Source: Hexactinellida sp. DTS-2022 (taxonomy: Eukaryota > Porifera > Hexactinellida). Taken from it: a DNA stretch of 64,000 bases. Position 1 is the stretch's first letter, and the number at the start of each line of letters is the position of its first letter. Below the pieces are notes generated by a model that did not search any database, was not told where the DNA came from, and saw only the letters and a program-made list of their open reading frames with translations. The stretch covers positions 809,042 through 873,041 of the forward strand of contig JAPNXP010000010.1 of assembly GCA_028753945.1 (NCBI GenBank). The letters are read 5' to 3'. Positions 2,808-64,000 of the stretch are shown here, in pieces. Position numbers and translations under genes: made by a program.

Positions 2808-5800
2808 TTAGATAGTGATACTGACTGGACAGCGGTTAGATAGGAGAAACACGTAGGGAATCTCCTGATCCTTATTCCTAGAGATAATTTTTGCATTAAT
2901 TTCATTGAGTGATCGCTTGAAATTTTCAATGCAATCTTTTGCTTTTGCTTCTGTGAACCAATTCTGTGGGTAAGCGCCCATGAAGACCTGAGGAATAGGA
3001 ATTTAGAATAAAATCTAAAAATTATAGCTGTGCTGGCAGCATTTTCTTCGAAGGAACGATATTTTGTGGTGCTAATTGTGCCTCCAAAAGAAAATTCTGT
3101 AACACAGCTCTAATTTTAGATTTTTGTACTTGTCATCATCGCTTTAAGGGGAAGACGTTACGCAAGTATTGCTATATGATTATATTTTTATTTAGTATCC
3201 TTAATATATGTTGTCATTTGTGTGTCCATGTGACTATGCAATAGTTTAAATAGGGAAATGTACATTGCACATCCGTAACCCATGAGACAATTTGTATTAC
3301 AAAATGGTCAAAATCGTGGTATCTAATTTTCCTTAATTTTGCGTTACGTAATGTTTTAACGGCTCATAAAGTTGTTAAAGCATTTCTTAGGGTAGCAATC
3401 ATTTTGGTCTCTTAGAAGTACTCAACAAACTTATCGCGTTTCCGAGTTATTTTGTAAAGGATCAATATTTTAGGTTACTCAGCTTTTTAAATTAATAGAT
3501 ATTGAAAATTCAACTAAGTGTAAATTAATATACATGTATTTTGAGATGTCATCATCACCTTAAAGTGTTAAGACCCATTTAGAAAGGTATTATGCGCTAT
3601 AAGGAACAATTTATTAACTGGAAGTTCGTTTCTATCAGGCACCATCGTTGTGATAAATCAAATCTGTTAAATTAATTTAGTCAAACATTTAACATATTAG
3701 TATGTGTATAGAACAATGGGTCGTTCAATGTAATGCTTCCAGGATAGAGGGTGGTGAGCGAAATGTGAGCGTAACCTAGGGAATCGTACTTGTGTACAAC
3801 TGCTTTTTATGCACTTCCGTAGCCATGAGACATCTATCCTGAAGTTTCAAATTCTAATTACTCAAACTATGGTCTGTAGATGGGATACGGGACAAAGAAA
3901 ACTAACCAAGGCAATCATTTCAATACTGGCCCACTACATTTCAGTCGGAACATTAAAAACAATTCAACTGTGATTTTCATATTGATACAAGCTACCATTC
4001 GTATATAGTTAGATTTATATAATCAACATACGTGCATTTAGGTTTTCTTCAACCAAATATGTATCCCAAAGTAAGGGCTTATAAATATGTCGTCAGTGGG
4101 AATAAACCGTAGTATATTAATATATTTGACACAAACTGAACTTGGCAAACAGTTCATGAAATTTTGGGGATACATCCCAGGATTTCTATAAGGAGCACTA
4201 CTTGCACTACTGACTTAAAATGCAGATGATTATAACACTTTGTTATGTGCATATCAAGTCGAAAATAATGCTTGGTAATTTAAGTGTATGTATTTAATAT
4301 TCGTATGTTATTGTAACTTACTTCTTCTGGACTGAATTGAGAAAGAGAAAATGTAATTGCTGAGTTCAATACAGCGGATAAGGCGTGAGGCAGTGCATGA
4401 AGCAGATCGTCTGGTGTATGCACACCTTTCTTAGTGGGAATAGGTTGGCGTAGGTTGGAAGGGGAGTTAGGAACATAACCGTAGATTTGGAATTGGCCAA
4501 AGTTAACTGCTGAGTGTTGTACAGAACCGGTGAACATTATTAGCGTGCAATATTCAACCAATTCATTCTTACTTGTTATAGTTAATGGGAAGCCACGTCC
4601 TACGGGATTACCATGAAAAGCAGGGAATGCCTTGTTGTGTACCTCATAGGTCCAGTTCTTCAGCTCGATATCTTCTGCTACATCTTTATCTCCTGGGTAG
4701 AACAGATCGATAATGGACTTTGTGTACGCTTCTATCGCATCCCACAACCTAACTCCGTCATCTCTGTAGAAGTAGTTCGGTAACTTGTCAGGATCTTCAA
4801 CTCCACGCTCTGCAATGTTCCTCTTAATATTACTCCAATGCACACTGTACAACTGATTGGACCTCTTGAATAGCTCATTCTTCCCTGAATTAATATCATC
4901 ACCTCCAATCGATAATACAAAATCCAATAAGCCACCATCATTAATAAGGCGTGCTCTAGCCTGTGTATTAATAGCCATTGTGTAATGGAAACTAGGTCTG
5001 AGTAGCTTATACACGGGGTGTGCATCTGGTAGTGTCCTCATTGTGGCTACACCGTATGCTTCCATTGCAGCGTGGCATACCACGTAGTGAGAAGAGAGTT
5101 GGTGGTGCTATAAATATTATGAGAAAATAAAGATTCTAGATAAACACATAATTCTACTTCAGTTTATGATTCATTTATGCCAATCCGATTTTAATCTTTT
5201 GTTAATTATATTTCATATACATACTATATTGCTCTGATTATGAATATAAATTTGAAACATTTGTAGATACCACAGTTACCATGTTGAGTAATTTACCTGT
5301 GCACTGGCGTTGGAAAAGTACATTTTGGCTAGCAGCCAGTCACTCCTGCTGTCTGTTGGTAAGAAGATAGGATTATCCTCTGATGGTTGTCTCTTCAGTT
5401 GAATAGCGATGGGAACAAGTTTCTTAGCTGCATTGACGTAGAGAAGACAGAGAGGAGCAGCACAGTAATAATCTTTCCTGCAAGGCAGTCCATCCAAAAT
5501 CTCACTGAGGTCAGAAATGTATACGTATCCATCCTATCAAAAGACAATATTAGAGATTAAAGCTGCTACTTAAGTTTGAAGCATGTATTGAGTGATTATA
5601 ATTTCTAAAGAACAAAACGAAGATGGTTAATTTAATAACTGTACCTCCATTTCTGTTCTCAAATCTCCACTTCTAACCAGAGAGTGTTTTACCATTTCTT
5701 GAGTTACAGAGAAGTTTAGTGGTAGTTCAATGCAACATTTTATGACGACACAATTCACACCATTCAATATTTGGCGTCCGAATTCAACATCACAAGTCCA

Positions 5801-7501
5801 ACGAGATAAATCGTATGGTACGATTGGTCCAACGTATACATTATATATATCATCTACATCAGACTTCTTCTCCTCTTTTTGTAATAACCTCGCAACTTCA
5901 TAGAATCCCTGAAGGTTTTCCATGCTATCCATATTTTCAATTTTATTACCAAATAATTTAGAAAGCATATCATTTGCAATCCTCAGAACACCACTTTCCA
6001 AACCAAAAAATATACCTTTGAAACCATTTCCTAAGAAATTCTCTTCTTTGCATCTATCAAATCTCTCATCGAGAGGGAGAACTTCTTTTTCAGTGTCAAT
6101 TGAAGATGGTAATCCAGTCTCATCATAACTCTTCCATGTGTAAGTTAGTTGTCTGTTTCGAACTTGGGTTGCTCTTCCTTCAACTATAATTTTATTGAGT
6201 TCGACCTGGTTTAGTATGCCTAGAATAGTACAAACGATATACAAGCTTGTTTATAGTTGTGAATTGAACTCAACAGCTCTAGCTGTTAATTAATTAATTA
6301 ACTTATTATTTAATTTACTCCCTACTATCTTCACAGTACATACTTTATCATTTTACTAGCAAATTATACTTTGATGCATAATTAACTCAATTTACGATTT
6401 GGTTTGGGTCTAATTCCTTTTATTGTTAATCTCCATGATTTTGTTTGTATTTTCATTAAAATTTATGGAGAACTAGAAATTTAATTCGTTTATTTTTAAT
6501 TCTCTAATCTTATATTTTGAGAAATAAACTTGTTTAAATCCTGAAATATAAGATGAGATGAACAATTAAAGATATTCCCGAGGATAATTTATTTGAGTTT
6601 TACATTCCTATAATAAACTTTACGAATTTGCACATTTGATTGCAAACTCATAAACTAAATCAGTCCAAATTCTGCAATTTAAAGATAATATACACGAGTG
6701 AATATTCTATCAAATTAACTCACTGCAATTAGCTGCATTAGTGAAATAGTCTCCCAATGCAATCCAATGGTAACACGGGAATACAATCTCCCTATCCACT
6801 TTGAAGTCTTTCACCAATGTATACTCAACATACCAGCTGGCCCATATATTTGATATGAAGCCCCTACCATTACCGACAGTCACGAGTTGTATCTCCCCAA
6901 GGTCTCTGTCACACTCGATAATGAAATCATCATAAGTTCCATTTTTGACGAATAACTGGAAATAGTGCTTAATACTAACTTTATCAGTTTTCGCTTTGTC
7001 TCCAATTATAATTATATATGCATCACCAAGAGTCCCAGCATCTCCTTGATCTCCCGTCACAATTCGGACTCCGTAGTAGTAATGGCCCTGTTTCTGGTTA
7101 CCTATGGTCAAAAAATGATAAATGTATCGATTATATGTAAAATTAATCATAGTCCAAATATTTGCTAATATTGACACAATTGAGACATAGGCAAGATGAA
7201 TTACTAACCAATTGATTGATAGATTAACTCAACCTATTTTAACTTGTCTGATAATTATTGAACGTTGTAAAAGTTGGCTTTAAATCAACTTTTACAACTT
7301 TCAATTATAAATAAATTTTAATTAAATTTAATACACGTATTTGTGAAACTCACTTATCTTGATATCGAAAGGACCTATTTCGGGATTTATCATTGAGGTG
7401 AGCGGATCTTTTTCCTCTTTGTACTTTTTGAAAGGTTTGTTATCACTGATTGAACACCATGCGATCGGAAGAGTTCCAATTGGGCCTTGCGTAATTGCCA
7501 T
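2808..7501 (-). CDS. Animal lipoxygenase with N-terminal PLAT domain, six coding exons
   Basis: The enzyme inserts O2 into polyunsaturated fatty acids and binds membranes through PLAT. Exons inferred from GT-AG sites, 5' to 3': 7501-7354, 7101-6724, 6219-5645, 5533-5297, 5107-4322 and 2987-2808. The lengths total 2304 nt, giving 767 residues plus stop, with phase kept at every join. PLAT spans about residues 50-170 (YYYGVRIVTGDQGDAGTLGD, then DLGEIQLV). The lipoxygenase domain has all the iron ligands: His453 and His458 (HQLSSHYVVCH), His644 and Asn648 (QHSAVN), and the C-terminal Ile767 (CPVSITI then stop). The spacing from Asn648 to Ile767, 119 residues, equals that in human 5-LOX. The first ATG lies two bases inside a possible acceptor (TTTTATAG), so an upstream exon is possible. 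About 50 residues precede PLAT, more than is usual. The stereo-control (Coffa) position aligns by eye to Ser512, not the usual Ala or Gly. The substrate and ALOX class are not assignable. Confidence 0.9.
3025..3690. repeat. Old copy of the array hairpin repeat inside the last lipoxygenase intron
   Basis: It contains AGCTGTGCTGGCAGCATTTT followed by the imperfect return arm ending at about 3120, then GTCATCATC and TTAAGACCCATT blocks shared with the array units at 38-54 kb. It is much more diverged than those copies. Confidence 0.55.
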
Positions 7502-17465: not shown

Positions 17466-18737
17466 CTAAAAGAATTGCAGACATGCAGTATTTTTCTGAC
17501 ACACAACTACAATCCGTCCAGTGTTATCTAGCACTATTCCCCACGGGTTAATGAACTCCCCAATACCCTGACCATAATTACCAATCCTGTGTATCTCTTC
17601 TCCCAACTGATTGAATACACACACACAGTGATTATTGTAGTCACTCATAATGATGCTATATTCTCTGTCTACGTCGAAACAAGCTGGATTGTATGTTTGC
17701 TTACCATTGCCACGAGTTATCAGTCTGTTGGTTAGAACGTGATTTGAATCGAACACAAACATACAATGATCACTCTCATCTAGCACCAATACTCTGTCTC
17801 GTGTAACCTTAATATAACGTGGATGGTTAAACACACCTATTCCTAGCATGGAATGTAACTTGAGATCCTCTGTGAAGATTTGGACTCTGTTATTATAATA
17901 ATCACAGACATAGACATCGTTAGTTCTATCAGAGACAGCCAGACCGAATGGGCAGTTGAACTGAGCTTCTCCACTCCCATTGATACCAACACTCTTGATT
18001 AGTTTTCCTTCTAGCTCGTACATATTAATACAATGACCACCGTGTTGTGTGACTAGGACGCTATTATGAGTAATACAGATACCCACTGGTTGATTCATCT
18101 TCTCACTGAACATGAAAAGATAGTCTCCGTTACAGGTAAATACCTGTACTCGATGGTTGACCTCATCCGTTATGTAAATGTGTCCAGTCTTGTAATGCAC
18201 TGCTATGTCTCTGGCACCATTCAATTCTCCAGGAGCTTTCTGTTCGGTAGACTTCTTGCAGCAGTAAACAGTAGGCAGCCGTTTAGCCTTGTAGTCCGGT
18301 ACAACAGGCTTCACTTGAGGAGAGAAGGTGCGGGTGGGAGATATGTTAGTCTGACCGTTAAGCTTAATACTCCCTAGCTGTTCAATGTCAGTCTCGAATA
18401 GACTGTCCCACTCGAATTCAATACTACCATCTATAACAGCTGTTAGCTCTGCTATCTTGTTGTCAATTGTAGAACGTATTATTTCAAAGGTAGTTTTATG
18501 TTCGTCATCAGTTAGGGTATCTGAGCTAAATGATGTTATTTTATTCAAATCTTCGACTAATTTATTCATTTTTGGAATTTTGCTATTATACTCTGTCTCT
18601 ATGCGATCAACACTAGAGAGTAGGCTACTCTCTCTAACGCGTAGAGCTTCATGAGACCTTTTGAAGCTGTCATGTATATTCTTTCTTGCATGCGTTATCT
18701 GATCATGGAAGTTAGTACTAGTACTTGCGTTAGCCAT
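17466..18737 (-). CDS. TRIM-like NHL-repeat protein, RING-less, single exon
   Basis: A 423-codon uninterrupted frame from ATG (MANASTSTNFHD) to stop. Residues about 10-105 are helical and charged, as in the coiled coil of TRIM proteins. A short linker rich in Pro, Lys and Cys follows. From about 170 six NHL-type repeats are readable, each with a hydrophobic strand and a D-x-x-N-x-R/C-V-x-V/I-F pattern (for example ITDEVNHRVQVF, VCDYYNNRVQIF, MSDYNNHCVCVF). Six repeats predict a closed six-bladed propeller, which in TRIM-NHL proteins binds RNA or protein. There is no RING or B-box, so ubiquitin-ligase activity is not predicted unless it is encoded elsewhere. A decayed paralogue is at 13543-14226. 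Short, intronless NHL genes of this kind form large families in sponges and cnidarians; its partner is unknown. Confidence 0.88.
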   Translation of the reverse strand: MANASTSTNFHDQITHARKNIHDSFKRSHEALRVRESSLLSSVDRIETEYNSKIPKMNKLVEDLNKITSFSSDTLTDDEHKTTFEIIRSTIDNKIAELTAVIDGSIEFEWDSLFETDIEQLGSIKLNGQTNISPTRTFSPQVKPVVPDYKAKRLPTVYCCKKSTEQKAPGELNGARDIAVHYKTGHIYITDEVNHRVQVFTCNGDYLFMFSEKMNQPVGICITHNSVLVTQHGGHCINMYELEGKLIKSVGINGSGEAQFNCPFGLAVSDRTNDVYVCDYYNNRVQIFTEDLKLHSMLGIGVFNHPRYIKVTRDRVLVLDESDHCMFVFDSNHVLTNRLITRGNGKQTYNPACFDVDREYSIIMSDYNNHCVCVFNQLGEEIHRIGNYGQGIGEFINPWGIVLDNTGRIVVVCQKNTACLQFF

Positions 18738-33220: not shown

Positions 33221-35032
33221 TTAATCTGCGAAGCCAAATTGGTATGCTATGCCTTTCAAAAATTCCAATTTTGGACGCGATAGGTAATTGTTGATCAAGG
33301 TCTTTAACGCTTGTTCACGATCTCTATAGAGTTTTCTTTTGGTAGGAATTCTGCCACTCATACAAAAAGCTTGTTTCACTTCAACTAAATCTTGCTCTTT
33401 TTTTAACACTTCCAAGAATCTCCAGATCGAAGGATGATGACATGCCATATCACAGGTAAATGACCTATGCCATGCTTCTATTGCATTAGTCGTTCTCGGC
33501 AAGCTATGTTGAACCATAAAATGGTTATTCCACATTTCAATAGGAAATAAAGGTGGCACAACAATTGGAGAATTGATCATATGCCTCCCAATATAGGTCC
33601 TTTCGAAATACAGTGCGAGGTCATAAGTTTCGGGAGGAAGTGTGGCAAATAATTCACTAAACAGATGGGGAACATCTGTAGGAGTAGCAAATGCTAGGGA
33701 AGGAATCATTCTAACTTGTAGTGCGAACGAGGAATCTTGTTGATATCGAGTTTTTAGTCCTAAATCTTGAATTTTCCTCCACATATTCTGTGTTAAATGA
33801 AAGAAACACCCTTTAACTTGGGTCCCAGGGAAGTTTAGATAGAAGGCATTTATTGCAGCCTGTTCGAAATCTACTATTAGATGAGAAGGGCATGCCTGAG
33901 GGCATAAAATTTTGATTTCATTCCACATTAGAGCATAAATATTTTCAGATTTGTTTGAAAGCAGGACAAACAAACAAGGTAATAAATGCCCATCTTCCAG
34001 GATATTTGGCCCCCCTTTTAGAGCGTGGATAACGTAGAGTTGATAAAACAAATTCGGAGCTGTTTTAAACGTACCATCAGCCATCCAAATATTTGATGTG
34101 TTCAATACCTCGATATTTGATGCTGTGCCAAATATCAAGATGCGCTGATCTTCAATATCTGTCCCAGAATCATATTGAAGAAATGCATCTCCTTTATTTG
34201 TCTTCTTGTAACTCTCTGGTATAACGAGCGTATTAAATCTCTCTGGTTCTGGAGGTACATTTAATGCTCTTTTGCGTGCTCTCCGAATAGTCTGTTTTAA
34301 ACTGTCAAGCTTGGGCAGACATACAGCCGATTGTTCGCTGACATCTCTCAATGAAGAAGTCAGAATATTGTGGGTACTATCTTGGGTATCAAAAGCTCGA
34401 CGTTTGATAACAGTTTTGACCTTGGAGCAATGAAAAATTGAAGAATTACTTTCATGAGTATGTTCATGAATCCTCTTGATAACGATCTGATTTTGTGTGT
34501 GTATTCTGGCACTACATACACTCCTTTGCACACACTGCCATTGCACAATATTTCCTCTAATTCGATGACTTGTGTATGAAAAGCCCATTTCCATTAAACA
34601 TTGTGCTCCTCTCTCTGTTGTAGTAAATCTAAGTTCAGACAATGAATGGTCTTGAACATGCGAAATGGGGATTTGGTCCTGTACATCCGAGACAATATCA
34701 GAAGTATGATCAAGAAATAGTGAATCTTCGGATGTATCTTGAAGAATTGGTTCAATTGAATGTTCCTTATCTCTATTCAGAATTGGGTCGTTAAGCACTT
34801 CCATTATTTCTAAGTGCAGGTTAGCAGCTTGTTCATTGAGATTGAGTTGTTCTCTATATACTTCTGTAGTACAGAATATATATTCATGTAACCTAGCATG
34901 TATTTGCGTATTATCCCAAATTATTGTCCTGTTAACAAATAAGGAGAAAGCGATAAGCTCGTCAAACTCGCTACACTCGATGCTTTGCCATGTAATTCTG
35001 ATAACCAACAGATTCTCACTCTTACCCCACAA
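33221..35032 (-). CDS. MULE transposase with FLYWCH zinc finger
   Basis: A 603-codon open frame. Residues about 136-196 form a FLYWCH-type zinc finger: an aromatic WQC then C (WQCVQRSVCSAR) and the HEHTHE histidines, which in this family binds transposon ends. Residues about 300-430 form the MULE RNase-H-fold core: first catalytic Asp319 in IWMADGTF, second Asp388 in LIVDFEQAA, and the CFFH motif around His412. A Glu in TTNAIEAWHRS is a candidate third catalytic residue. Length and domain order are normal for animal MULEs. There are no stops or frameshifts, and both terminal arms are preserved, so the element may be active or recently active. The first ~100 residues show no recognised domain, and the true start could be a later Met. 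Confidence 0.88.
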   Translation of the reverse strand: MWGKSENLLVIRITWQSIECSEFDELIAFSLFVNRTIIWDNTQIHARLHEYIFCTTEVYREQLNLNEQAANLHLEIMEVLNDPILNRDKEHSIEPILQDTSEDSLFLDHTSDIVSDVQDQIPISHVQDHSLSELRFTTTERGAQCLMEMGFSYTSHRIRGNIVQWQCVQRSVCSARIHTQNQIVIKRIHEHTHESNSSIFHCSKVKTVIKRRAFDTQDSTHNILTSSLRDVSEQSAVCLPKLDSLKQTIRRARKRALNVPPEPERFNTLVIPESYKKTNKGDAFLQYDSGTDIEDQRILIFGTASNIEVLNTSNIWMADGTFKTAPNLFYQLYVIHALKGGPNILEDGHLLPCLFVLLSNKSENIYALMWNEIKILCPQACPSHLIVDFEQAAINAFYLNFPGTQVKGCFFHLTQNMWRKIQDLGLKTRYQQDSSFALQVRMIPSLAFATPTDVPHLFSELFATLPPETYDLALYFERTYIGRHMINSPIVVPPLFPIEMWNNHFMVQHSLPRTTNAIEAWHRSFTCDMACHHPSIWRFLEVLKKEQDLVEVKQAFCMSGRIPTKRKLYRDREQALKTLINNYLSRPKLEFLKGIAYQFGFAD

Positions 35033-35522
35033 AGTTACAGGGATTTGAATGCATCTGTCAGCTTTGGCTTGGAATTAGAAAAACAACTTTTAACACCATT
35101 TTCCAGTGAACGGATTACCTTAACTGACCTAACCAAGGCACGAAAGGTTACCGATTCAATTGTGGCCATTTCTCTATGAGTTGATCAATATCTTCTTCAC
35201 TTGCAAGATTTTCAGAATTGACGTGAGAATAATTCTGGCAAAAAGTAGAGAATGCGAAGATATGCCAAGGTACATCCATATAGTTCATTGTAAAATTTAG
35301 CACAATATGTAATATTGATTAAATAATCGAGTATTTGTACTCTACCTCAAAATGTGAAGATATATCACTCTTTGTTGTATATTAGGTGCCACTTATTAAT
35401 TAACTTTGATTCAATTTAATAATTAAGTTTGGGTTTGATTTGCTATATTTAAAGGGCTTCGTTAATTCGTTAACAATTTATCGAATTGACAAATTAACAA
35501 TATATCGAGTTGACAAATTAAC

Positions 35523-42238: not shown

Positions 42239-44577
42239 TGAGTAGCCTGATTTTGATCGAATTTAGGTCGGAATTTGATCGAAAACTTGTTATGTAGGAA
42301 TTTGATCGAATAGTTTTCCGATGCCGGAAAATGATCGAAAATGCTATTATACCATATTTGACTAATAAGTGAATAAATACGAATTTGATCGAAAAGTTTT
42401 CCGATGTCGGAAAATGATCGAAAATCATGACGTGAAATTTTGTATTAGTTTAATAAAAGTAAATAAATGAAATTAGTCAAGTAAAGAAAAGATACTTTAG
42501 ATTGAAAATATTGAATAAATTCACTGGAAAATGTTCATTGTTCCGATTATTTCTCCGCGGCAAATTGGGCATACTTGTTTCAAACGATGTATTTCTGTAG
42601 CACATCTTTCACAAAACCCAGCGTGAGCAAATCCATCATGTAGGAGTCCAAAATTATCTATTCTTTGTTGAAAGCATACGTAACAGCGGGAGTTTGATGT
42701 TCTCCGTCGTCAGATAATTCTAATTCTTCTGTATTCGAATGTTCCTGATCGTTTGAATTCCCTTTTGTTTTGTTTTCTTTTCCAATTGTTGACGAAATGG
42801 CATTTATGTACTCAATTGCCGTGAATACTCGATTTAAATATTTATTTTTATACTGATTTCGAAGATCTGCATTCTTACGAGATTTCGGATTAGAACCTCT
42901 TGTTATTATTAATCCCTCCTCTAACCTCCTCATTTCTAAATCAAAGTCTAAGATTATATCTTCTAAGGAAGACAAAAATTTCCAGATATTTGGATGACTT
43001 GTCTTTATATTAGACTTTAGTGACTTGTGATAAGATCAGCATTATTATTCGTGCTAAATTGGTAGTAAAAAACGGACATACTTTCGTTCCCATCAATCCA
43101 AGTTTTATAAAAGTAATTCTCAAGAGATTTCACAAGTTCCAATTCAGTAAGCGTCAAATCTAAGAACGATTTTTTGATCGCGAAATATGTGGACGTAATA
43201 TCCTCTTCAGGTAGATATGGAAGCGCCATCAATTCATGTACCCATTTCTTGAATGATTTGTTGGTTTTGTACAGCTTAGCGAGACCGATCTTTTGTACTT
43301 TATCATGAATAACCTTTGTATAGTGAAACCAACATCCCACGATAGTGATATCCGTAGAAACAGTTTTAAATGCATTGCGCGATGCCTTCTGAAAATCACA
43401 CATTGCGATGGAAGGATTGAATTCTGCAACAAGTTGGTGTATTGCTAATACTACTGCAGTATAAAGGTGTTCACTCTTAGAAGTCATCAGAATATGTAAT
43501 GCTGGAATCGCATGCCCCTTGATCCGATAAAAATTGTCAAAAGCTGGTAGAATATTCGCGGAACTACATCGAAAGTGGCATCGAAGTGAATAATTTCGGC
43601 TTCCTTAAGCTTCAATAACATTAGATCAGACGCAAATACTACTGCTATTTCATCGCAATTCCTAATTGTTAGTCTGTGGAATTTGGAGTAAGGAGAATTT
43701 GTTAGGAGTTGGTCGAACTCTTCAGGAGATACCGGCAATTTAGGCAGGTGTGATCTCCGTCTCTTGAACATCGTACTTTCAAGTGTTCTAAAAGTTAAAG
43801 TTGTTGCTGCCTGTCGAGGTACGACACTCTAAGTTGAATATCTGTCTCAAATTATCAGTAGAAATCTCTGCAGTTCGTTTGATTCTGTTGGCTAAGACAA
43901 TACTATGAGATTTGTATTCCGATTCAGAATGATTGTGCGCTCTAGTTATTTCCAAATTATTTACCAAGGTACTGATTTTTGCCAATCCCTCACATGCATT
44001 TTGTCTAGCGAGAGTGCACTTCAGGTAAATTGTACCGTTTGATTCCCGATTCTTTGCATAGCGATATCCTCCAGATATATAATTAGTCGAATTCAATTTT
44101 ACCCCCTCAACAATTGAAAAATCCATTTTGATTAAATTTAGATATTATATAATACTCTCAGACTCTCAGTTGATGTCCAATATATAGTTATTTGATCAAA
44201 ATGTACCTAATACGTTTGCTTACCAAAGTAAAAGTGCAAGCGTGATAAAACAACTGCATTTAATAACAATGCTTGTTATCATTTTGCAAATTTATACTAA
44301 TTCACTCCAATATACTCAAATTTCAATAGAAACCATTTTCGATCAAATTCCTATTTGTTCACTTTTTAGCCAAATATGGTATAGTAGCATTTTCGATCAT
44401 TTTCCGACATCAAAAAACTTTTCGATCAAATTCCTATTTGTCCACTTTTTATCCAAATTTGGTATAGTAGCATTTTCGATCATATTGCTATTTTTTTACT
44501 TTTCACTTTCGATCATTTTCCTACTTCCATTTTCGATCAAATTCCGACTTCAGTTTTCGATCAAATTCAGCTTTCCC
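42239..44577. mobile_element. MULE transposon with decayed transposase, 2.34 kb
   Basis: Both ends carry inverted arrays built on TTTGATCGAAAA and GGAAAATGATCGAAAA units, with shared blocks GCTATTATACCATATTTG (left) and its complement near 44370. The duplication GCTGCTA flanks it (42232-42238 and 44578-44584). The sequence just upstream is a tandem partner of the target (CAATAGATATTACTATACAA), which matches the joined flanks and acts as an empty site. Confidence 0.82.
42521..44126 (-). pseudogene. FLYWCH-MULE transposase with C-terminal MDM2-type RING, frameshifted
   Basis: Five reading-frame segments in order. 44126-43788 holds a FLYWCH-like finger (YLKCTLARQNACEG, then RAHNHSE). 43771-43487 begins the MULE core (IHFDATFDVVPRIFY, first Asp). 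43487-43017 continues it (AMCDFQKASRNAF, second Asp, and GCWFHYTK). 42975-42658 is the acidic tail (PNIWKFLSSLEDI precedes it in another frame). 42685-42521, shifted by one, encodes a RING finger: C-x2-C, then H-x4-H-x3-C-x2-C (HDGFAHAGFCERC) and CPICRGEI, ending near NIFQ and a stop. This His/Cys spacing is that of the MDM2 RING, an E3 ubiquitin-ligase fold. At least four single-base shifts have killed the gene. The segments join only by inference, but each junction overlaps in an adjacent frame. The RING lies inside the transposon ends, so it travels with it. Confidence 0.8.
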
Positions 44578-60759: not shown

Positions 60760-61335
60760 TTATTTCTTGTACGTAATAAGATGTGAGGGATATGCGATAC
60801 AGTTCTCATAGACAATGTGTATAACTTCTCCCCCTCGTCTCCCCTGTACACTGTGGTATCTATCTCTCAGTGCTATTGGGGCGTAACGGGGGACTGGTAA
60901 TACTTTCATCCCGTGAAAGTTCTTTTGAGTATCCTATAAAAACTGTTGCTACAAACACACAGCATAAATCGTCCTGTGTTTCATAGCGATAAGAATGTGA
61001 ATATGAACAATTTGTGGCGAAATATATACCACGCCCCCATAGACCCTTATGAGCGTAGTTCATATTAAACCCTTGTGGATCGTTAATAATTAGGTCTGGA
61101 TTGGTGCCGCTAGACCCGTGAAAAAGCGAGCGGATGTAGAGACAACTGTCTGGATTTCTGTTAGTTTGTTGGAATATTTTATCTTTTAAAGCATTCCAGC
61201 AGTGCGGATTGAATATTTTCTTAATAAATATAACTTCGGAGTATGGCATGGAGGAATGGAAACAGCGAGAGATAGCTTTGAATTCCTCCTCCTGTGAGTC
61301 CAGGTTAACTTGACTGAAGGACACACCCACGTCAA
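60760..61335 (-). CDS. PARP/ADP-ribosyltransferase catalytic exon, 3' end of the sacsin-HEPN-PARP gene
   Basis: An acceptor (TTCTCTCAG) at 61336-61337 opens the exon; it joins the exon ending at 62013 in phase (AVLN-F-DVGVSF). The sequence shows the helical lead-in (IKKIFNPHCWNALKDKIFQQ) and the NAD-binding motifs: His in LFHGSSG, GFNMNYA, and Tyr in GLWGRGIYFATNCSYSH. The frame breaks at the C-run at 60888-60892. In the shifted frame the domain ends normally (RDRYHSVQGRRGGEVIHIVY, then ENCIAYPSHLITYKK and stop at 60760). One base missing or extra there, genuine or from sequencing, would account for it. Aligned with PARP1, the catalytic Glu position is Ile (VIHIVYE), giving H-Y-I, which predicts mono-ADP-ribosylation at most. 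It resembles PARP10-15-type domains. Confidence 0.8.
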
Positions 61336-61575
61336 CTGAGAGAACACAGTAATTTGTAAAATAATATTGATATGAAAATATATACAGTGGTCAGTGTTTT
61401 TTTAAGGAAAATTATAGGCCCAAATGGGCTTCTAATTTTTCTCAATGAGCCTCTAATTTTTAACGTGCTAAGTACTCAATATCATGAAATGTAGAGTGAG
61501 GGCCTCTAATTGTTGGGGTGAGGGCCTCTAATTGTTGGTAGGGCCCTCTAAGCAAATCCTTAAAAAAAACACTGA

Positions 61576-61719
61576 CAGTGGTATTTGCATATAAGCAATA
61601 TTGTTCTATTAGCAAGTTATCGTGCATTCCCAAGCAAGCGTTTAATTGAAGTGAATACGTTCATCTAATGACAAGTTCGCCTACAAAAAATGATACTTGC
61701 TATTACGCGAACCCTACTG
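61576..61719. mobile_element. pogo-like MITE in the sacsin-PARP intron
   Basis: The left end is CAGTGGTATTTGC and the right end, inverted, is CAGTAGGGTTCGCGTAATAG, followed by TA. The inside repeats TTAGCAAG-like units. A further terminus-like sequence (CAGTAGACTCTCGTAATAAT) lies at 61762. Confidence 0.6.
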
Positions 61720-62012
61720 TATAATAAAATGAGATTTCCTTAATAGCAAATAGCAAACTACAGTAGACTCTCGTAATAATGAACACCAATGGACCTCGGA
61801 ATTTCATCGTATTAACTGGAATTCATATTAAGCGGAGTAATTTAAATGCATATTATAGACGAGGGGAACTAATCCTTGTGTTATAGTATAGTAGGTTAAA
61901 TCTACATGTAGTTCTTAAACTGTATATCGCTTATCTCACAACACTTGCACTCCCCTCCTTAACAAATATTTCGCCTTACCCTTGTATATTGCTTAAGTGC
62001 ATAACTACTTAC

Positions 62013-64000
62013 AGTTTAGCACAGCGGTTATGAGAGGGGGGTGTGCCGAAGGCAGAGACCTGAAGAGTGGGTCCCGCTGGTCTAGCAGCATCTCCCGCAT
62101 TGCCGGGAGCTCCCAAATAACCAGCTGCAAGATACGCTCTGCACTCCTACTCGCCTCTCTCGCCTGATCCAGTGTGAATATCTGTTGGGGAATATAACTC
62201 CCCACCCCGTGAGTAATGGTGGAATTAGGAATGCGCGTCTCGACGTCATAGTTCACTAGCGGTATGGTGAGCTCTTCTATTTCCGTGTACAGCCGGGGGC
62301 GACCGGGTAGGAGGAAAGGAATGTAGTCGATGAGCACTCTTAAATTCCGCTCCATTTCGAGTCTATTTTTAGACCCCTTAAAGTGTAGCAGAGCTGTCAG
62401 CACCTTAACCACAGCCTCGAAACAGAAGAAGCAGGCGTGTGCGGGAAACAAATTATGGTTGTCTCCACAAGGTGTGAATAATTTCTGTGCAGTTAGCAGG
62501 TCACACTGCGCTATCATTAGCCAGAGTCTAGCAGCTGGGAGATCTGGCTCTCCAATAGAAATACCCTGGGGCCTAGGCCGTGGTGCTGTGTATGTATAGT
62601 AGGTTCTAGCTACAGGGGAAGAGTGGTAAGACCTGCTACCAGTGGAATGAGTACTATAGTGAGTGCCTGAGTGAAATGTTGGGGGCGGAGTTGGAGATGG
62701 GGGCAGTGGGAGAGGCCAAGGATCGAGTGTTATATTGTATTCATTGAGTTTCTCCATAATGTCAGCTGGTTCTAGCATGAAACAGAACTCAAAGAAAGAA
62801 AGCACATCTGTGAAAATACCGCCGAGACGCATGTTGATTGTATAGGCGATGTCTTTATGAATACACTTATTTGGGTTGCTTGATAGGATGAACTGATTGC
62901 TGCTAGCGTTAATGTAGCAACTACATGCGTTGTTAAGAGAGTAGTTAACAGGCGGAGTCTGTAGCTTGTCGGTGATAACAGTATCAATCTGTGTTACCGC
63001 TACAACGCGTAATCTGTTCACCAATATACAGTAAACAGACTCAAAACCAGAATGGTCTGAGCCGTCATCGCTAAAACAAGTTTGTCCATTCGACAGGAGT
63101 AACTTCTCAAGATCTTTCTTAGTTAAGTGGAAGTAGAGTCTTCGCATGGAGCGAAATACGACGGGAGAAGTTAGAGCTGTTTGTAGAGATAGCGAGGCAT
63201 AAGTCCCCGGGATTATAACTTTATGTGTTAGAACATTAGGATCAATGTTCTCAGTTATGAGTTCTGTTAACTGCTTCAAGCGAAGGCAGTTAGGTGGCAC
63301 ACAAGATTTGTTCTCATCTGGTTCTAACGGCTTTAGGATGTTGAGGGAGAGATTAAGTTTGTTAACCCTTGACAGTAGCGATAGGTTATCTGCGAATATG
63401 ACGTCACTGCATATTACTAGCCGAGTGTCTCTTGTCAACAGATAAACCTGTGTTAAGTCGAGTGTACATTGTGTAGAATTATTCTGAAGTTCTCTCAGAG
63501 CACTGATGAAGCTGTTGAACACTTCATCAACTTTTTGTTCGTATCCACTATCACTCAATTGAATATTTTGTGTATGTAAAAGCTCGAATATTTTAAATAG
63601 AAAGTATGCATAATGTCTGAAAGTAGCCCTTTCTTCAATCCCAATTCTTTTCAGAAACTGAGGATAGTTCCCAGCTAATTGAGCAGGTAGTTGGATCACA
63701 AAAGGAAAGAGAATTTCTATTGCACTGAATAGCAATTGAATTGTGTAGTATAACTTAGTATCCCATAGGACGCAAGGTAAATCAACAAGCCCTTCGTATT
63801 TGAGATCTGTTTGTGATAGATACTTCTCCAAGTATTTGTATGACTCATTGAAGTACTTTATAAAGCCGTTAGGAATGTCAGTTAGTGCGGGGTATACCAG
63901 TACTATCTGATTTGTTATATTAATTAAATGATCCCACATTATTTTGGGATTAGGATGGCTAATTATTCCAAGATATTGGTAAGAAACATTTGGGAATTTA
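62013..64000 (-). CDS. Sacsin-like repeat region plus HEPN domain, large exon (5' partial)
   Basis: The frame is open from the window edge: 20 codons upstream of the first ATG (63939) still read sacsin-like sequence (YQYLGIISHPNPKIMWDHL). Residues 1 to about 400 (counting from that Met) resemble the sacsin repeat tail with its YLGI-HP-HL pattern. A Pro/Ser/Thr/Tyr-rich linker spans about 405-460. Residues about 465-620 form a HEPN domain: LPAARLWLMIAQCDLLTAQK, the CFFCFEAVVKVLTALLHFK helix, and YIPQQIFTLDQAREASRSAE. Sacsin is a giant co-chaperone ending in DnaJ-HEPN; no HPD-bearing DnaJ domain is visible here. A donor GTAAGT follows AVLN at 62012, just before an in-frame stop, so the exon should splice on to the PARP exon. 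The N-terminus (sacsin Hsp90-like repeats, if present) lies outside the window. Confidence 0.82.

Follow-up and report, generated by a model that had tools for sequence, protein, structure and literature searches.

A predicted family of giant sacsin-like genes with a PARP12/14-type last exon in a hexactinellid sponge, proposed as chaperone-effectors

The window analyzed here is a stretch of 64,000 nucleotides (C2:809042-873041) from the 112-Mb, 18-contig assembly of Hexactinellida sp. DTS-2022. Its minus strand carries the 3′ end of a sacsin-type gene, in which a giant exon with a terminal HEPN domain is followed by an intron and a PARP exon (Table 1, which also lists other genes of the window). 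The full frame of the giant exon comprises 1153 aa, extending past the window into L009, and upstream of it lie frames of 2173 and 789 aa (L009, L010), the gene being resolved as far 5′ as L010:2932. The first-pass annotation, made from the letters of the window, had suggested looking upstream for Hsp90-like sacsin repeats, and these were indeed found, the Sacsin profile PF25794 matching the 2173-aa frame at E=2e-116 and the 789-aa frame at E=2e-19, with three repeats at this locus. A Pro/Ser-rich linker lies immediately N-terminal to HEPN, within a region (62548..63999) that is 94% identical to the copy on C15 and 28-44% identical to the other PARP-linked copies. The N-box and G2 box of GHKL ATPases were found by pattern in five of six giant frames, L014 giving no match to the N-box pattern in its giant frame, and their retention makes ATP binding by the Sacsin repeats likely. 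Searches for a DnaJ (J) domain gave no match at E≤10 for the frame of the window, and none at E≤0.1 for four giant frames, those of L018, L017, L014, and L012.

The giant exon ends at the donor AACT/GTAAGT (62013/62012) and the next exon opens at the acceptor CTCAG/TTGACG (61336/61335), a predicted join that is in frame in phase 1. The first-pass annotation had read a sacsin-like/HEPN exon with a consensus donor at 62013 and an acceptor of compatible phase at 61335, and both sites are present as described, the upstream frames supplying the Sacsin domains. Read through unspliced, the exon meets an in-frame stop that begins 6 nt past its last full codon. A PARP catalytic domain does follow in the next exon, as had been proposed (PF00644 at 4.2e-14; PARP12 at 1.1e-12 in the PDB), but the accompanying claim that it runs to its natural C-terminus is not supported, since the window frame stops early and a different frame holds the final ~35 residues.

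Table 1. Coordinates of the features discussed. Plain numbers are positions in the window; those with a contig label (C) refer to the assembly.
Feature	Location	Strand	Remarks
Lipoxygenase gene exons with PLAT domain	4280-7228	-	PF00305, PF01477
423-aa Met-start open frame with NHL repeats	17466-18737	-	
MULE/FLYWCH transposon protein	33221-35074	-	617-aa open frame
Second MULE-like copy	42658-44144	-	fragmented
Displaced PARP-domain end (YHSVQG...VIHIVYENCIAYPSHLITYKK) and stop	60760..60933	-	out of frame with PARP exon
PARP exon in spliced frame	60860..61335	-	stop TAG 60862-60860, premature compared with paralogues
PARP catalytic match	60887..61288	-	PF00644 profile 2-134 of 199; 53 bits; H (LFHGS), Y (GRGIYFA)
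Phase-1 intron, 677 nt	61336..62012	-	donor GTAAGT, acceptor CTCAG
HEPN domain, end of giant exon	62014..62547	-	PF05168 profile
Giant sacsin exon 5′ of HEPN	62548..63999	-	after last Sacsin/Hsp90-like repeat; extends past window
Giant-exon open frame, window part	62005-63999	-	664 aa, open to window edge
PARP-linked sacsin loci	C2:870k (window), C15:3.41M, C1:540k, C4:5.30M, C1:7.17M, C2:5.36M, C1:12.26M		
PARP-less sacsin loci	C18:1217-1232k, C4:4377-4392k		four Sacsin repeats each; giant frame ends just before HEPN position
L042, internally deleted broken copy of window gene	C18:5386766-5389942		sacsin-exon pieces, HEPN end, intron, PARP start in order
207-aa PARP frames	C6:2100142-2147631 (9 places); C3:2471k; C4:1089k; C12:137k		tandem array on C6

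The domain that ends the giant exon is called HEPN on the basis of a profile match together with its position. In the window copy the match to PF05168 (E=0.0011, 19.6 bits) lies under the curated cut-off of 22, and it stands at E=0.017 when the whole 664-aa frame is searched. Six of the seven paralogous domains are matched by PF05168 at E≤1, the best at 6.6e-5, and no other Pfam family recurs; two paralogues rise above the cut-off in the genome search (22.8 and 22.5 bits), the same two falling below it in scans of long frames (17.0 and 16.9 bits). A PDB search with the HEPN family profile returned nothing better than E=0.99, a first PDB search with the whole 664-aa window frame returned repeat-protein noise only, and a single-sequence fold of the window domain was mainly helical at low confidence (pLDDT 40.6). 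The strict motif of HEPN RNases is given as Rx4-6H, and several HEPN-T proteins are listed with D replacing H (PMC3710099). This pattern occurs in four of the seven sequences at non-homologous places, RNL is invariant, and D stands at x6 after RNL in four of seven. Given the lack of a shared Rx4-6H and the D at x6 as in HEPN-T, binding is favored over cleavage, and RNase activity of this domain appears doubtful.

The PARP module is matched by PF00644 in all seven paralogues, and its family profile run against PDB found PARP12 (6.9e-26), PARP14 (about 1e-21), and then PARP15 and PARP13. The H and Y of the catalytic triad are invariant in all seven domains, as are the residues surrounding them, and the third residue, read at what we take to be its position in the aligned domains, is I, V, or A in each of the six that reach it, the window copy stopping before it in frame. 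Hence the domain is PARP12/14-like (Clade 3) with an H-Y-[I/V/A] triad. A triad of the type H-Y-[I/L/V etc.] in place of H-Y-E is the rule for mono-ADP-ribosyltransferases, and the lack of glutamate at the third position suggests that this domain is probably one of them. Scans of viral and of bacterial/archaeal contigs with the PARP profile, which are silent on animals, confirmed none of 11 and none of 22 pattern stretches, respectively. Away from the sacsin loci, the genome also carries 12 PARP frames of 207 aa with identical scores (Table 1), a pattern that suggests recent amplification of PARP or a mobile unit.

The condition of the window copy itself has to be considered separately from that of its family. 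The displaced end of its PARP domain, about 35 aa closed by a stop at 60762-60760, lies at C2:869804-869908 (L019:4305-4475) and corresponds to residues 195-229 of the L018 PARP at 89% identity. L018, the copy on C15, has a PARP domain 93% identical to that of the window with a frame open to the domain end, and in the whole-genome searches the longest giant frame reached 4125 aa in L018 and 2963 aa in the window gene. Outside the window, at L009:3477-3507, the gene is broken a second time: here the frames of 1153 and 2173 aa overlap without sharing a phase, and L018 is open at the equivalent site. One of the two breaks adjoins an A run, the other being a short tandem duplication. Compared with an open L018, the two frame breaks point either to recent pseudogenization of the window copy or to assembly errors in it, and the copy is probably non-functional or mis-assembled. 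On balance we lean toward a recently formed pseudogene and not an active member of the family, a reading favored by both breaks and by the existence of a yet more decayed, internally deleted copy at C18:5388k (L042); against it stand the small number of breaks, just two in the part of the gene read, the chance that the one beside the A run is an assembly error, and the dN/dS values against L018 given below. Unbroken paralogues of the window gene are present in the genome (e.g., at C15:3.41M).

Sacsin-repeat arrays form nine complete loci in the genome, with three repeats at six loci and four at three, and in seven of the nine a PARP exon lies downstream on the same strand. At C1:12.26M about 16 kb separate HEPN and this exon, and the two were paired by their order and junction; the intron before the PARP exon measures 223-924 nt at seven other loci. 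An additional duplicated copy of the tail is found at C1:547k and decayed pieces lie on both strands at C18:5342-5394k, where the donor of L042 has changed to GTATGT. In all eight loci where the junction was read it falls at the same place, in phase 1, with the donor GTAAGT and the acceptor AG, in proteins as little as about 30% identical. Because the same arrangement is repeated at these other loci, its occurrence in the window is far beyond chance. No PARP match was obtained at C18:1.22M and C4:4.38M, where about 1.5 kb past the stop of the giant frame was read. Duplication by haplotypes was ruled out as a source of the copies, since the window gene and L018 lie on different contigs (C2, C15). 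The first-pass annotation had named the absence of any orthologue with both domains as an argument against a fusion; within the one genome covered, paralogues carrying both HEPN and PARP are present.

Such a recurrent pair might also consist of two adjacent genes that were duplicated as a block, one encoding sacsin-HEPN and the other encoding PARP from a promoter of its own. For seven loci measured, the in-frame stop that follows the giant exon begins 6-96 nt past the last full codon, and five of the seven PARP frames (L018, L012, L013, L017, and L014) have their first Met before the PARP domain, in L017 and L014 just past the acceptor, as independent genes could have. Against this stand the common junction in such diverged proteins and the first Met, which is at no common place and lies inside the domain both in L016 and in the window copy. 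Moreover, among 40 PARP rows from the genome the top ten are all sacsin-linked or decayed copies, and the next full-length match after them is 29% identical, one further row being a 41-residue match at 49% (C1:9133031). We therefore regard two neighboring genes as very improbable.

The history of the two modules was compared by trees. For PARP, 18 domains were used, eight sacsin-linked and ten others of the same genome, leaving out 11 further fetched loci (only pieces or a twin) and the places that were not fetched, and the sacsin-linked domains fall on one side of one branch with support of 86/91 and in 88% of bootstraps. Convergence of unrelated neighbors is rejected by this tree. The tree of the sacsin tail, with ten rows of which the two PARP-less ones served as outgroup, groups the window with L018, L012 with L013, and L014 with the pair of L016 and C1:12.27M, and it is compatible with the PARP tree. 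Placement of the PARP-less pair is supported by just 45/1, so that a gain of PARP and its loss on another branch both fit.

Selection was estimated as dN/dS by the method of Nei-Gojobori in three close pairs. For HEPN the values are 0.17 (window/L018), 0.18 (L012/L013), and 0.21 (L016/C1:12.27M, a pair with dS above 1), and for PARP they are 0.25, 0.71, and 0.20 in the same order, so that five of the six comparisons fall at 0.17-0.25; the pairs window/L012 and L018/L012 are saturated for both domains. For the giant exon, the window gene compared with L018 gave 0.44 and 0.61. These ratios suggest that HEPN and PARP have mostly been under purifying selection. Taken as a prediction from sequence, a fused sacsin-HEPN-PARP architecture is in our opinion highly probable, and the genes are expected to be transcribed and spliced across the HEPN-PARP junction. 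The proposal of the first-pass annotation that one gene joins sacsin/HEPN to an ADP-ribosyltransferase is accordingly upheld for the family, by the same junction at eight loci, compatible trees, and mostly purifying selection, but not for the window copy as it stands, whose PARP frame is broken.

The predicted protein would consist, in order, of Sacsin repeats (Hsp90-like GHKL ATPase), a Pro-rich linker, HEPN, and PARP, and this order allows a working scheme to be drawn. ATP binding by the Sacsin repeats would drive capture or remodeling of a client, HEPN would dimerize and bind polyanions such as nucleotide in the manner of human sacsin, where it forms a dimer that binds nucleotides through their phosphates (PMC4569058), and the terminal PARP domain would mono-ADP-ribosylate the captured or a neighboring target. 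The domains, the junction, its recurrence, the selection, and the breakage of the window copy are read from the sequence, and the ATPase and transferase activities, the targets, and an immune role of the fusion are predictions. The reading that we favor, with moderate confidence, is that of a giant sacsin-like family with a catalytic domain of PARP12/14 type in its last exon, which may act as a chaperone-effector. The proteins could instead be ordinary sacsin-like proteostasis factors with a passive or inactive PARP at the C-terminus, given that a chaperone role is described for sacsin (PMC3710099, PMC4569058), that the third residue of the triad is variable (I, V, A), and that the window copy lacks the strand bearing it in frame. 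Nevertheless, the invariance of H, Y, and their neighboring residues, the dN/dS of 0.20-0.25 for PARP in two of three pairs, and PARP12 and PARP14 as closest solved relatives all weigh against a passive domain, which we consider unlikely.

What a chaperone-effector of this kind might do is suggested by analogy. Regulation of translation and of viral replication is attributed to PARP7/10/12 and an antiviral role to PARP13 (PMC4245714), PARP14 is likewise called antiviral (PMC8195603), and sacsin is placed within a coral-diversified, stress-responsive gene set (PMC6208414). A stress or innate-immune effector mechanism can be put forward tentatively on these grounds. The copies on four contigs, the tail duplication, and the decayed copy fit the turnover of immune genes, and they also fit ordinary duplication. 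More speculative still, and rather doubtful at present, is the view that these are giant sensor-effectors, specific to one lineage of early-branching animal, each with a sacsin clamp that is driven by ATP and would sense foreign or misfolded material and activate a tethered mono-ADP-ribosyltransferase. If so, they would amount to an NLR-like immune system in one protein, chaperone-based instead of built on a STAND ATPase. Sacsin mutations occur in a human ataxia, and what the protein does at the molecular level is described as still unclear (PMC4569058). A repeated natural fusion of sacsin with PARP suggests that both can share a target, and it connects chaperones of the sacsin type with ADP-ribosylation signaling in a way that can be tested. 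Should an immune role be true, the fusion would also add a type of effector to the immune repertoires that marine invertebrates have built by domain shuffling.

Among known systems, the nearest counterpart of the N-terminal part is sacsin itself, human SACS and the sacsin-like protein of Acropora, which combine Hsp90-like, J, and HEPN domains (PMC3710099, PMC8626496). The fusion resembles them in having its Sacsin/Hsp90-like repeats mostly in a giant exon and HEPN ending the chaperone part, but differs in its lack of a J match (four paralogous frames, E≤0.1), its Pro-rich linker, and the PARP exon after HEPN. In vertebrates, sacsin also carries a ubiquitin-like domain at its N-terminus. With the PARP12/PARP14 group (Clade 3) it shares a C-terminal catalytic domain and the H-Y-[I/V/A] triad, whereas its remainder consists of sacsin-HEPN and not of CCCH fingers/WWE or macrodomains; a PARP census (PMC4245714) contains no occurrence of HEPN in its main text. 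Sacsin-like paralogues of the sponge Amphimedon are likewise fused to a further domain, the signaling domain DEATH, and are treated under host-pathogen conflict (PMC3710099). The Amphimedon partner, however, is DEATH and N-terminal, and none of the Death domains of the present genome lies near a sacsin locus, the four places found all being away from them. Cnidarian TRADD-N proteins that combine HEPN with Macro-PARP, predicted to be immune (PMC8195603), likewise unite HEPN and PARP in one predicted protein, but are built around TRADD-N with macrodomains. TRADD-N sacsin fusions are named separately in passages of PMC8195603 that do not bring sacsin together with HEPN and PARP in a single protein, and no description of a sacsin-HEPN-PARP protein was found in the literature searched, mostly open papers and without the supplementary architecture lists of PMC8195603. 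The parts are known from these systems, and their combination as sacsin-HEPN-PARP is, as far as can be told, new.
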